Below, piece by piece: positions 22,934-27,243 of a stretch of 64,000 nt of DNA; positions within the stretch are counted from its first letter, which is position 1; the number at the start of each line of letters is the position of its first letter. The stretch is from Streptomyces sp. VRA16 Mangrove soil (GTDB taxonomy: Bacteria > Actinomycetota > Actinomycetes > Streptomycetales > Streptomycetaceae): contig NZ_JAFVLN010000006.1 in NCBI RefSeq assembly GCF_017377775.1, positions 372,001-436,000 of the forward strand, in the 5' to 3' direction. The notes beneath the pieces were generated by a model. The model saw nothing but the letters and a program-made list of their open reading frames with translations. It was not told the origin of the DNA and ran no database searches. The translations under genes and the position numbers were made by a program.

Positions 22934-23560
22934 TCAGGCCGTGCCGGTGAGGGGCTGTCCGCCGCCCACCCGTCCCTGCAGCAGCAGCGACAGCGCCGCG
23001 TGCACATCGTCCAGCGAGCGCTCCGGCTGGAACGCCTGCCAGTCCAGGGCGGCCACCAGAACCATCCCCACGAGGGCGGCCGCCGTGAGCGGCACGTCGA
23101 TCTCCTCGCTCAGCTCGCCGCTGTCGACGGCGGCGCGCAGCACCCCCTCCACGACCGCGACCGCCTCCTGGCGGACCACGGCGAGCGTGGACTGCCAGGC
23201 GCGGTTGGTGCGCCACAGCTCGGCCACGTACAGCTGGGTGAAGGCCGGGTACCGGTCGATGAAGACGAGCCCCGCGCGGATCATCGCGTCCAGGGCGTCG
23301 ACCTTGCTGCCGCCCTTCTCGTCCGCCTGCTGTGCCGCCTCCCGGAGGGAGGCGGTCAACAGACCGACGCCGTGCCGCAGCAACTCCTCGAAGAGGACCG
23401 ACTTACTGGCGAAGTTGTAGTAGACCGTGCCCTTCGCCACCCCGGCCCGCTCGGCGATCTCGTCGACCGTGGTGGCCGAGAACCCCTGCTCCGCGATGAG
23501 GGTGACAGCGGCTTCGTACAGCTTCTGCCGGGTGGCCTGGCGCCGTGTGCTGCTTTCCAT
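22934..23560 (-). CDS. TetR/AcrR family regulator
   Basis: This 208-residue regulator has a canonical N-terminal helix-turn-helix (residues about 8-55: LIAEQGFSATTVDEIAERAGVAKGTVYYNFASK). A divergent ligand-binding domain follows. It lies downstream of the YhgE/Pip gene on the same strand, and a TetR-like palindrome precedes the operon. The simplest reading is an autoregulated local repressor of the exporter-like pair. The inducer is unknown. Confidence 0.93.
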   Translation of the reverse strand: MESSTRRQATRQKLYEAAVTLIAEQGFSATTVDEIAERAGVAKGTVYYNFASKSVLFEELLRHGVGLLTASLREAAQQADEKGGSKVDALDAMIRAGLVFIDRYPAFTQLYVAELWRTNRAWQSTLAVVRQEAVAVVEGVLRAAVDSGELSEEIDVPLTAAALVGMVLVAALDWQAFQPERSLDDVHAALSLLLQGRVGGGQPLTGTA

Positions 23561-23595: not shown

Positions 23596-25680
23596 TCACA
23601 GGCTCAGCTCGGGGTGCAGCCGGTCCAGCGTCCACACCTGCTTGCGGCGGGCCGTCACGGCGGTGAGCGCGAGGGCGCCCGCGGTGAAGGCGGCCAGCAC
23701 CGCGCACGCCTGCCACACGGGCCCGAGCCCGCCGCCGGAGATCAGCCGGCGCAGCGCCTCCACGATGTAGCTCATGGGCAGGAACGGGTGGATCGCGTTG
23801 AAGAAGCCCGGGCTCGTCTGCACGGGGTACGTGCCGCCCGCCGACGTCAGCTGCAGCATCAGGAAAGCGAGCACAAGGATGCGGCCCGCCGCCCCGAAGC
23901 GTGCGTTCAGCCACTGCACGATAGCCGCGAAGCACGCCGTGACCAGGCACAGGAACGCGATGGTGCCCGCCGCGTGCAGCATCTGCAGCCCGAGCGCCCA
24001 GTGCAGTACGGACATCAGGGCCGCCACCTGAAGGAGGCCGAGCGCCGCCACCGGGAGCCAGCCCGCGAGCGCCACCCGCCAGGAGGAGGCGCCGACGGCG
24101 AGCGCCCGCCGGTTCAGCGGGGCGATCAGCATGTAGGCGACCATCGCGCCCACCCACAGGGAGAGCGGAATGAAGTACGGGGCGAACCCCGTCCCGTAGT
24201 TGGGCGCCTTGTGCAGCGACTGGGAGGCGAGCCGCACCGGGTCCGCCATCACTTCGGTGCGCCGGTCGCGGTCCTTCTTGTCGTAGTCGGGGATCTGCGC
24301 CACCCCGTCGTGCAGCCCGCCGGCCAGCTTCCCCGAGCCGTCGGCCAGCTTGAACATGCCGCCGTCGAGGTCCTGCGCCCCGGTCTTCAGCCGGCCCACT
24401 CCGGAGTCGAGCGTGGTGGAACCCGTCGACGCCGTGCCGAGGCCCGTGTGCAGCCTCTTGGCGCCCGCGGCGACCTCTCCGGCCCCCTTGTTGAGCTTGT
24501 CGATCTGCGCGACGGCGTCCGCGACGTCCTTGTCGAGCGTCGGGGCGCGCTGCGCCAGCGCCGCGGACTGCTTCTGGAGCGTCGCCAGATGCCGGTCCAT
24601 GGTGTCCAGGTCGCCGTTCTCGTCCTGGATCAGCGTGTTCAGGTCGTCGGAGACCGTCGCGACGTCCGCGGCCGCCGTTCTGGCCTTCTTCAGGTCGGGG
24701 CAGGCCGGATCGGCGATGAGCGCCTTCTCGCAGCGGCGCTCGTAGATCGTGTCCAGGATGTCGGAGCCCGCGTGGGCGCCCTCGCGCGCGGTGGGCGCGA
24801 GCTTCACCAGGGTGGCCAGGTTGTGGCGCACGCCCGCGGCGGAGTCGGCCACGAACCGCGCCGTGTCACCGATCGCCTTCTTGTTGTCCTTCAGGAACGG
24901 CAGCACCTGGCCGGCCGTTCCGTCGACCTTGTCGGCGAGCAGCTGGGTGCCGGCGGCGACCTGTCGCGAGCCCGTCTCCAGATCGCCGGCGCCCTTGTCG
25001 AGCTTCTTCAGGCCGCTCGCCAGGTCACCGCTGCCCTTCTTGGCGTCCTTCAGGCCGTCGGCCAGGTCCTTGGAGCCCTTCTTGGCCTTGCCGATGCCGC
25101 CCTTGAGGTCGTCCGCGCCCTTGGCCGCCTTCTTGGTCGCGTCGTGGATGTCCGAGAAGGAGATGAAGATCTTGTCGAGGAACGAGCGCGACGCGTGCGT
25201 GGACGCGGCCGAGCGCACCTCGGAGAACACCGTCCGGGAGATCTGCCCGACGATGTAGTTGTTCGCGTCGTTCGTACGCACCTGAAGCGCGCCCGTCTCG
25301 GGGGAGTCCCCGGAGCTGGAAGCGATGCGCCTGCTGAAGTCCTTCGGCATGGTCAGCGACAGGTAGTACGTGCCGTCCTCCACGCCCGCGCGGGCCTGCG
25401 CGGCGCTGAGCTCGTGCCACTGGAAGGTGTCGCTGTCGTACAGGCCCTTCGTGATGTCGTCGCCCGCGTGGATCTTCTGCCCGGCGGCGCTCGCCCCCTT
25501 GTCGTCGTTGACGAGCGCCACGGGGATCTTGTCGAGCCGCCCGTACGGGTCCCAGAAGGACCACAGGTACAGCGCCCCGTAGAGCAGCGGCAGCAGCAGA
25601 AGTGCGACGAGCGCGGCGCGCGGCAGTTTCCCCCTGCCGAAGCGCCTGAGCTCAAGCGCGGCCAGCTTCGGCGAGCGCAT
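23596..25680 (-). CDS. YhgE/Pip family membrane protein
   Basis: This 694-residue protein has one N-terminal transmembrane helix (about 20-45). A large extracellular region with repeated ADGL/LASGL/LDKGAGDL-type helical heptads (about 190-450) follows. Five or so C-terminal helices close the protein. This is the YhgE/Pip (ABC-2 like) architecture; homologues act as phage-infection proteins or type VII-secretion-linked exporters. Its start lies inside the upstream ABC gene (29-bp overlap), and TetR follows. The exported substrate is unknown. Confidence 0.9.
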   Translation of the reverse strand: MRSPKLAALELRRFGRGKLPRAALVALLLLPLLYGALYLWSFWDPYGRLDKIPVALVNDDKGASAAGQKIHAGDDITKGLYDSDTFQWHELSAAQARAGVEDGTYYLSLTMPKDFSRRIASSSGDSPETGALQVRTNDANNYIVGQISRTVFSEVRSAASTHASRSFLDKIFISFSDIHDATKKAAKGADDLKGGIGKAKKGSKDLADGLKDAKKGSGDLASGLKKLDKGAGDLETGSRQVAAGTQLLADKVDGTAGQVLPFLKDNKKAIGDTARFVADSAAGVRHNLATLVKLAPTAREGAHAGSDILDTIYERRCEKALIADPACPDLKKARTAAADVATVSDDLNTLIQDENGDLDTMDRHLATLQKQSAALAQRAPTLDKDVADAVAQIDKLNKGAGEVAAGAKRLHTGLGTASTGSTTLDSGVGRLKTGAQDLDGGMFKLADGSGKLAGGLHDGVAQIPDYDKKDRDRRTEVMADPVRLASQSLHKAPNYGTGFAPYFIPLSLWVGAMVAYMLIAPLNRRALAVGASSWRVALAGWLPVAALGLLQVAALMSVLHWALGLQMLHAAGTIAFLCLVTACFAAIVQWLNARFGAAGRILVLAFLMLQLTSAGGTYPVQTSPGFFNAIHPFLPMSYIVEALRRLISGGGLGPVWQACAVLAAFTAGALALTAVTARRKQVWTLDRLHPELSL

Positions 25681-26482
25681 CGGCCGTCTCCTTGTCGGTG
25701 TCGTCCCGGTCGGGGGCGGTCGCCTTGGTGGGCGCGGGGGCGGTCGACACGACGACGGCGCCCGCAGGGGCCTTGCTGCACACGGCGACCACCGTGGTGC
25801 CCGCGTCGGCGACGGCCTTCAACTGGCGCCATACGTCGGCCTGTTCGGTGTCCGAGAGCTTGAGATCGGTGTCGTCGACGCCGATCAGCCGCGGCCGGCC
25901 GATGAGGGCGAGGGCCAGAGACAGACGCAGCGCCTCGACGCGCTCCAGGTCGCGCACGGCCGTGCGGCCTGCCTTGGGCAGCGTGTCCGGGTCGAGTCCC
26001 GCGCCGGTCAGCGCGGCCTCGATCCGCTGCTTCGCCTCGGCCACCCGCTCGTCGCGCGAGCGCAGCAGCCCGCGCCACGACCCGTCGAACCGGCGCTGCA
26101 GCAGCGCCCGCTCCCGCAGGTGCTCGGTGACGGTCAGCGCCGGATCGAGATCCGTCACGCCCGGTACGTGCGCGAGCGCGCTCACCCGCCGCACGGCGCT
26201 CATCTGCTTCGGCAGCCGGAACCCGGCGACCCGGGCCTCGCCCGCCGCCGGACGCATCCGCCCCGTCAGCGCGAGCAGCAGACAGGTGCGGCCGCTGCCG
26301 GACGGGCCCTCGACCGCGACGAGTGCCCCGGGCCCCGCGTCGACGTCCACGTCCCGGAACGCCCAGCCGCGCGGCCCCTTCACCCCGAACCCCGCGGCGA
26401 TGACGGCGGCCCCGCCCTCGGACGCCTGCCCCTGAGGCCCCTCAGGTCCCCCGGGTCCCCCGGGTCCCTCCGGCCCGTCCAT
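25652..26482 (-). CDS. ABC-type ATP-binding protein with altered nucleotide motifs
   Basis: This 276-residue ABC ATPase-like protein partners the YhgE/Pip protein. It starts with a Gly/Pro/Glu low-complexity stretch (1-23). The Walker A is GPSGSGRT (59-66), with Arg65 where lysine is normal. The signature region (about 176-186, VRDLERVEALR) lacks LSGGQ. The Walker B ends in DD (203-204) rather than DE. The overall order is conserved, so it is an ABC fold with probably weak or absent hydrolysis. It leads the operon, with GGGGAGGG before the ATG. Confidence 0.82.
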   Translation of the reverse strand: MDGPEGPGGPGGPEGPQGQASEGGAAVIAAGFGVKGPRGWAFRDVDVDAGPGALVAVEGPSGSGRTCLLLALTGRMRPAAGEARVAGFRLPKQMSAVRRVSALAHVPGVTDLDPALTVTEHLRERALLQRRFDGSWRGLLRSRDERVAEAKQRIEAALTGAGLDPDTLPKAGRTAVRDLERVEALRLSLALALIGRPRLIGVDDTDLKLSDTEQADVWRQLKAVADAGTTVVAVCSKAPAGAVVVSTAPAPTKATAPDRDDTDKETADALAEAGRA

Positions 26483-26518: not shown

Positions 26519-26540
26519 TTGAACTGACTGGTCAGTGCAA
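26519..26540. promoter_or_regulatory. TetR-family operator candidate
   Basis: The dyad ACTGAC-TG-GTCAGT has perfect 6-bp arms extended by TTG/CAA (TTGAACTGAC...TGCAA). It sits 37 bp upstream of the ABC gene, in the promoter position of the leftward operon ending with tetR. Sites of this look are common for TetR regulators. The assignment to this TetR is inferred. Confidence 0.75.
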
Positions 26541-26658
26541 AAAACTAGCCCGAACCTTCGATCGAAGCAAAGCCCCAGGTCAGAGCCGATTGTCAGTGCC
26601 GTACTTCACGATGGGCACATACGGCCACAGAGCCGTCACAGACGACAGGAGGTTCGTC

Positions 26659-27243
26659 ATGGCTGGACATCGCGCATCCACCGCGGCAGCTGCCGCCCGA
26701 CGCCGCGCCACCACCGGCCCTGCCCCCTCACCGACCGGACCGGCGAGCGACGTCCACCCGGTGCTGCGCCGGGCCGGCGCCCCGCCCGCCGCCCTCGACC
26801 TGCTCTCCCAGGCCCGCGCGGGCCTAGACGAGGCGGAGCTCCTCGAAGCGCCGAACGAGCGGTACGCGACGGCGCACCTCGCCGCCCTGCGCACGGCCGC
26901 CGCCGTGCTCGCCGCCCGCGGCCGCCCCGAGGCCACGCCCAAGCGCCGCGCCAGGATCCGCAGCGCCTGGGAAGTGCTCCCCGAGATAGCGCCCGAACTC
27001 GCGGAGTGGAGCGCGCTCTTCGCGGCGGGGGCCGCCCGGCGCGCCCGCGCGGAGGCGGGCATACGCGGCGCGGCCACCGCCCGCGACGCCGACGACCTGC
27101 TGCGCGACGTGGCGATGTTCCTGCGCCTGGTCGAGCGGATGCTCGTCCTGCAGCCGGTACTGCCGGGACCCCGGGGGGAGGGACGGGAGCGGCGCGAGGG
27201 AGACCGGCGCACGGGGGAGCCGGACGTGCCCGACGCCGGGTGA
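26659..27243 (+). CDS. SAV_6107-type HEPN domain protein
   Basis: This 194-residue protein is rich in Ala and Arg. It has a helical core (about 45-160) matching the actinobacterial SAV_6107 HEPN family: LDLLSQARAGLDEAELLEAPNERYATAHLAALRTAAAVLA, then KRRARIRSAWEVLPEIAPELAEWSALFA. The start is the ATG at 26659 with AGGAGG upstream, which drops 23 residues of upstream open frame. Many HEPN proteins are RNases, but no toxin-antitoxin partner (MNT or similar) is adjacent. Function is unknown. Confidence 0.85.
   Translation: MAGHRASTAAAAARRRATTGPAPSPTGPASDVHPVLRRAGAPPAALDLLSQARAGLDEAELLEAPNERYATAHLAALRTAAAVLAARGRPEATPKRRARIRSAWEVLPEIAPELAEWSALFAAGAARRARAEAGIRGAATARDADDLLRDVAMFLRLVERMLVLQPVLPGPRGEGRERREGDRRTGEPDVPDAG

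Follow-up and report, generated by a model that had tools for sequence, protein, structure and literature searches.

Nucleotide-binding domains (NBDs) of the DrrA, NodI and ABCA kind, which belong to the ATP-binding cassette (ABC) family PF00005, are among the closest described counterparts of a 276-residue protein of Streptomyces sp. VRA16 Mangrove soil, encoded in the 64,000-nucleotide stretch analyzed here (contig NZ_JAFVLN010000006.1, positions 372,001 to 436,000; hereafter the window, whose own numbering is used for all coordinates). This protein, which we call the pseudo-NBD, resembles them in fold, in overall sequence, and in its place upstream of an ABC-2-like membrane protein. Its best sequence matches in the PDB are ABCA3 and ABCA4, and its best match in NCBIfam is drrA, at 55.5 bits and far below the cut-off of 312.45. 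Unlike the NBDs of DrrA, NodI and ABCA, however, the pseudo-NBD has the Walker A lysine, the Q-loop glutamine, the signature motif, the catalytic glutamate, and the H-loop histidine replaced. We propose that it is probably a non-hydrolyzing, NBD-derived docking or regulatory subunit of the adjoining YhgE/Pip membrane protein, for which nucleotide binding is possible in Streptomyces.

The heterodimeric exporters with a degenerate site, such as MsRv1273c/72c, CydDC, PatAB, and TAP, offer a second comparison. According to the portions of the published accounts drawn on here, they carry a conserved NBD site in which catalytic residues have been lost, as in the pseudo-NBD. The partner NBD of these exporters keeps a working site, whereas the pseudo-NBD operon encodes no canonical NBD; the pseudo-NBD, unlike their degenerate sites, is also without the signature, Q-loop, and H-loop residues.

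The membrane partner belongs to a better-known group. Phage infection of some Firmicutes requires YhgE/Pip proteins, and EsaA of type VII secretion is a relative of theirs. The EsaA N-domain model, representing the EsaA/YueB family, matches the YhgE partner in the window at 56.7 bits, below its cut-off of 122. In the relevant passages of one study, PIP-EF of Enterococcus is presented as an orthologue of Lactococcus PIP related to EsaA, the YhgE/PIP domain is said to have no known function, and an ABC subunit is not mentioned (PMC4999554). A passage on a 357-residue protein of Streptomyces coelicolor, which places it in the Phage Infection Protein family with ABC-2 homologues, likewise mentions no ABC partner (PMC3924187), and the text on a mycobacterial YhgE/Pip gene located upstream of Mce genes refers to it, where it appears, solely as a recombination hotspot (PMC12584985). 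In the open-access literature of PubMed Central, with subscription papers and preprints outside the scope of the search, we found no account of a dead ABC subunit associated with YhgE or of a fusion between MmpL and a pseudo-NBD.

Fold, motifs, and conservation of the pseudo-NBD

The pseudo-NBD gene (25652..26482, minus strand) begins with ATG, and its product matches PF00005 (ABC_tran) at 45.6 bits against a cut-off of 25. The AlphaFold2 model of the protein has a mean predicted local distance difference test score (pLDDT) of 82 and a predicted template modeling score (pTM) of 0.78. Comparison of this model with solved NBDs (VIA-align) gave 4yer_B as the best match, with a Z of 23.2 and a root-mean-square deviation of 2.3 over 205 residues, and the ABC fold is predicted to be intact.

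We placed the motif equivalents, all on the minus strand, by aligning the pseudo-NBD with 11 canonical ABC domains. The Walker A equivalent is GPSGSGRT (residues 59-66; 26285..26308), in which Arg65 stands for the lysine. The Q-loop equivalent, VPG (residues 106-108; 26159..26167), has no glutamine, and the surrounding region reads HVPGV as compared to VFQ, VPQ, or similar in the canonical rows. The signature motif is represented by DLERVE (residues 178-183; 25934..25951), with LERVE at the position of LSGGQ, while the Walker B motif, LIGVDD (residues 199-204; 25871..25888), ends in DD as opposed to the canonical DE, with Asp204 at the position of the catalytic glutamate. Finally, the H-loop equivalent is CS (residues 235-236; 25775..25780), where Ser236 replaces the histidine and the region reads VCSKAP as compared to VTHD. 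A first-pass annotation of the window had described the Arg in Walker A, the absence of LSGGQ, and the DD ending of Walker B, and the alignment bears out all three; its count of three altered motifs was nevertheless too low, since the Q-loop glutamine and the H-loop histidine are replaced as well, so that five ABC motifs are altered by this alignment. The residues needed for ATP hydrolysis are gone, and hydrolysis itself would presumably be lost with them.

Across 86 Streptomyces rows, residues G59, P60, S61, G62, G64, R65, T66, D203, and D204 are conserved at 98-100%, and S63 is conserved at 91%. The mean conservation over the 223 columns is 79%, and 38 of these columns reach at least 98%. 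The ratios of nonsynonymous to synonymous substitution rates (Ka/Ks) of the pseudo-NBD domain in five comparisons were 0.23, 0.37, 0.52, 0.33, and 0.35, and those of the YhgE partner were 0.17-0.52. Judged from these sequence comparisons, purifying selection acts on the pseudo-NBD gene, and Streptomyces has retained the nucleotide-binding loop itself.

Probable partnership with YhgE/Pip across Actinomycetia

The frame of the pseudo-NBD overlaps by 29 nt (25652..25680, minus strand, from the coordinates of the open reading frames, ORFs) with that of a YhgE/Pip membrane protein of 694 residues with ABC-2-type membrane segments (23596..25680, minus strand). This partner scores above the curated cut-offs of TIGR03061 (195.6 versus 96.15 bits) and TIGR03062 (235.9 versus 102.2 bits), and it contains ABC2_membrane_3 (PF12698; 93 bits versus a cut-off of 31.6). 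An alignment profile of YhgE gave seven matches to solved structures at E ≤ 0.01; designed coiled coils and chemoreceptors made up most of them, and none was informative. Comparable overlaps of ABC and YhgE frames are found in the Streptomyces loci L038-L046. Translational coupling had been suggested both to YhgE and to the neighboring TetR gene. The former is plausible because the frames overlap by 29 nt, whereas the latter was too strong a claim, the TetR gene starting 35 nt past the YhgE stop, on the same strand and without overlap.

The two genes also occur together across genomes. A pseudo-NBD homologue at E ≤ 1e-25 is present in 123 of 150 Streptomyces genomes, all 123 of which have a YhgE N-domain at E ≤ 3.1e-53; among the 27 ABC-negative genomes, 22 have no YhgE N-domain at 1e-20 and the remaining five (G010, G014, G035, G045, and G060) have a weaker one, the best at 9.2e-44 (nine genome rows, seven in the ABC search and two in the YhgE search, were scored by absence among the matches listed). 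G010 carries a more divergent ABC-YhgE pair (L139). In the class sample of 394 genomes, ABC homologues at E ≤ 1e-18 were found in 69 and YhgE at E ≤ 1e-15 in 144.

Gene order points in the same direction. An ABC-like ORF lies immediately upstream of 212 of the 228 YhgE domains in all fetched loci (177 of 193 distinct), many of these loci having been chosen for their ABC match. A fairer sample comprises 60 loci around YhgE for which an earlier search had given no ABC homologue at 1e-18. Here, 48 loci carry an ABC-like ORF at E ≤ 1e-4, in a sample that is not blind because 8 of the 60 had shown a weak ABC ORF before. No ABC ORF at 1e-4 was found in the other 12 (L192, L200, L201, L204, L209, L210, L211, L222, L223, L225, L227, and L235). 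In the first six of these, an ORF ends no more than 31 nt from where the YhgE domain begins and may be a further eroded ABC copy; a Pfam scan of the ORFs adjoining YhgE in L192, L201, and L204 gave no match.

Taken together, gene order, co-occurrence, and conservation strongly support the partnership with YhgE that the first-pass annotation had supposed. The “unusual transporter design” that it saw is not peculiar to this strain: among the Actinomycetia sampled, full-length YhgE most often occurs in just this arrangement with a pseudo-NBD.

The substitutions recur in homologues beside YhgE. In a first alignment, which left out matches above 1e-40 and five of 15 fetched loci that proved to be other ABC genes (L048-L052; 21-53% identity over part of the query), Arg stands at the Walker A lysine position in 40 of 40 rows (the query and 39 others; 39 distinct). 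An enlarged set holds 180 YhgE-adjacent ABC-like rows, of which 179 are distinct, and no orthologue among these 179 has the LSGG signature. Position 65 is Arg in 85 of the 86 distinct main-lineage Streptomyces rows, the one other row being a fragment from L137, a disrupted copy. On the Arg counts in both sets, we rejected a local defect or sequencing artifact.

The 93 other rows have Arg in 48 cases, Lys in 13, His in 10, Gln in 6, and another residue or a gap in 16; they include the divergent Streptomyces copies L139 (G010), with Ala, and L140 (G137), with Arg. By tool-labelled family, Arg is found in 27 of 27 rows of f17 and 10 of 16 rows of f4, the other six having Gln, and Walker B position 203 is Gly in all 16 rows of f4. 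In lineages other than Streptomyces, the lysine is found to be kept or the P-loop lost. An Actinomadura homologue (L047:3-641, plus strand; 46% identity) has Arg in Walker A yet keeps the H-loop histidine (TCHDP), and apparently represents an intermediate state.

Twelve Streptomyces rows went into a quick tree together with 11 of the 15 canonical domains and those other rows that reach E < 1e-20 and have a filled P-loop. The tree splits 78 pseudo-NBD rows from the 11 canonical domains, with a value of 99 in the Shimodaira–Hasegawa-like approximate likelihood ratio test (SH-aLRT), and it implies at least seven changes of the Lys, Arg, or other state at position 65. A single origin of the pseudo-NBDs is supported by this tree, not proved, because the canonical sampling is small and several branches are long. 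Since similar losses are found in relatives beside YhgE across many actinobacteria, the window protein looks like a member of an old family of non-motor YhgE partners, not a single broken gene. It follows as a caution that, among actinobacterial proteins matching the ABC ATPase model, some probably lack ATPase activity.

Other forms of YhgE were seen along the way. L211 and L223 hold tandem YhgE-YhgE gene pairs in which no ABC domain was detected and which are possibly heterodimeric forms, and a shorter class of YhgE (frames of 441 and 464 aa in L141 and L142), with no ABC partner detected, occurs in Streptomyces genomes.

The TetR regulator and the upstream palindrome

A TetR-family regulator of 208 residues (22934..23560, minus strand; PF00440, 66.4 bits) lies downstream of YhgE and is probably in one operon with YhgE and the pseudo-NBD. 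A TetR homologue is found downstream of YhgE in all 26 Streptomyces loci with room for one. At the other end, a 14-bp palindrome, ACTGAC-TG-GTCAGT (26523..26536), lies 40 nt upstream of the pseudo-NBD start codon and is a probable TetR operator. As regards a TetR regulon extending past the operon, the palindrome occurs exactly once in the whole genome, with one further site at one mismatch. The exact palindrome was absent from 183 shuffled-sequence trials.

The search for the palindrome core covered the 300 nt upstream of the domain and the first 60 nt of the domain itself. Of 85 deduplicated Streptomyces loci, 75 have it exactly, 3 have it with one mismatch, and 7 have neither. Its position and co-conservation are consistent with repression by the operon TetR at this site. 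Next to the operon, a divergently transcribed gene encodes a SAV_6107-like HEPN protein (PF18726, 123 bits; 26590-27243, plus strand).

MmpL-like fusions and the likely role of the pseudo-NBD

MmpL-type lipid exporters of the resistance-nodulation-division (RND) class are connected with this family through 14 relatives from six tool-labelled families (f26, f17, f36, f42, f43, and f45), in which an MmpL-like N-terminal part shares one frame with a C-terminal pseudo-NBD, followed by YhgE (L105, L106, L110, L111, L113, L115, L116, L119, L226, L228, L229, L231, L232, and L233). The window ORF, by contrast, has PF00005 as its sole Pfam match and no MmpL part in frame. Four of the 14 fusions were compared with NCBIfam and matched RND/MmpL models at E of 1e-45 to 1e-59, with TIGR00833 at 156-188 bits; these scores are far below the cut-offs of 874.7 and 1400, so that the fused proteins are MmpL-like and fall outside the TIGR00833 and MmpL3 models. 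For the other fused rows, the MmpL-like call comes from a phmmer match to the MmpL portion of L111. Position 65 is Lys in 9 of the 14 fused rows, and the ABC part is strongly eroded in several of them (e.g., L228, L229, and L231). Some genomes, such as G400 and G510, combine a free pair of the Arg type with an MmpL-fused pair of the Lys type.

In the reading that we favor, the pseudo-NBD would descend from an ABC-transporter ATPase that lost its hydrolysis residues, and it would act as a cytoplasmic docking and regulatory partner in contact with YhgE/Pip. The operon TetR would repress at the palindrome, and a ligand, perhaps lipophilic, would switch on all three genes. Because Streptomyces keeps the P-loop, the Arg, and the Walker B aspartates, nucleotide or phosphate may still be bound there, in a structural or sensory capacity. 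This binding cannot be generalized beyond Streptomyces, given the Gly in place of the Walker B Asp in every f4 row, and since f4 has also lost part of the P-loop, the common function is more likely scaffolding. If YhgE is a pump, its energy would have to come from elsewhere than its own NBD. The MmpL fusions, which lay outside the view of the first-pass annotation, alter the probable account of how YhgE is energized and make the proton-motive force a candidate source in at least some lineages.

Several observations weigh against this reading. The AlphaFold2 model of YhgE is poor (mean pLDDT 66, pTM 0.35), which leaves the interface with the pseudo-NBD without a model. Sixteen of the 228 YhgE domains have no ABC ORF at threshold, and a disrupted ABC frame stands beside an open YhgE frame in the Streptomyces copies L137 and L138. 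The ABC-like scores reach down to 1e-7, with P-loops eroded past recognition, and the E-values of the divergent rows are partly circular because the second profile contained those rows; with a Streptomyces-only profile, family f4 scores about 1e-13 to 1e-24. Of seven upstream ORFs scanned in Pfam, four of them with a profile match and three lacking one, one passed the PF00005 cut-off, one fell below it, and five matched nothing, so that the weakest ABC assignments rest on position and our own profile. The regulatory arrangement is not universal either, since outside Streptomyces TetR is found downstream of YhgE in 30 of 107 loci and 22 of 53 loci have the exact palindrome, 2 more having it with one mismatch, while none of eight MmpL-fused loci has the exact palindrome. 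In Streptomyces the P-loop is retained so strictly that nucleotide would seem to matter there, a need that a mere scaffold would lack. Moreover, an Arg P-loop with Asp for Glu could keep slow hydrolysis, and the pseudo-NBD could have a canonical NBD from another locus as its partner.

A sharper form of the docking-subunit reading, to which we give somewhat less than an even chance, is that the pseudo-NBD is a sensor that would bind ATP or ADP tightly, with no turnover, and gate YhgE by its occupancy. The near invariance of the P-loop, Thr66, and Walker B Asp203 in Streptomyces fits such a role, as does the preservation of the positive charge by Arg65, and Trp40, which by its position may be an adenine-stacking A-loop residue, is conserved at 91% in the Streptomyces rows. 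The same positions fail elsewhere, however: the f4 rows, with Gly at position 203 throughout and Gln at position 65 in 6 of 16, imply that binding is not needed family-wide, and Trp40 is Trp in only 9 of 27 f17 rows.

We consider it unlikely, though not negligible, that the actinobacterial system is a hybrid exporter in which the ATP motor of YhgE has been swapped for a proton-driven RND pump, the dead NBD being an adaptor between MmpL and YhgE, either fused or free (e.g., in Streptomyces). In Saccharopolyspora hirsuta with cholesterol, a published transcriptome gives F1721_04135 (YhgE/Pip) as up 3.82-fold and F1721_04140 (MMPL family) as up 3.33-fold (PMC9782250); the locus tags suggest that these genes are neighbors, the second being known as MMPL by its family label alone. 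The free Streptomyces MmpL nearest to a fused one is L237, with 49% identity. L237-type MmpL at E ≤ 1e-150 is found in 144 of 150 Streptomyces genomes, many of which are without the operon, and it is missing from G008, G086, G090, and G137, all of which have the operon. A role of MmpL in Streptomyces is unsupported by this test because there is no co-occurrence signal, and an obligate MmpL partner was rejected there for the closest MmpL, the only one covered, which also counts against the favored reading. The pseudo-NBD as an adaptor between a lipid pump and YhgE has nonetheless become a question that can be tested.

A working ABC exporter with an unusual site, in which the Arg/Asp site hydrolyzes ATP at a slow rate or once a canonical NBD encoded at another locus has joined it, appears to us improbable. 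Such an exporter would agree with the predicted ABC fold and with the ABC-2-type membrane domain of YhgE, and the genome offers 51 other ABC-like matches, counted by match alone and not motif by motif. Five motifs are lost together, however; the signature of a canonical partner could complete solely the site formed with the pseudo-NBD P-loop, and an LSGG-bearing NBD is directly upstream of YhgE in none of the 179 distinct rows.

The docking-subunit reading has least to fear from a decaying gene under relaxed selection, kept solely for an overlap that helps YhgE translation: the further erosion of the P-loop in several lineages and the disrupted copies L137 and L138 agree with decay, but Ka/Ks values of 0.23-0.52, all below 1, the 38 of 223 highly conserved columns in Streptomyces, the persistence of the gene in many families of the class, and its fusion to an MmpL-like part in six make it very improbable.

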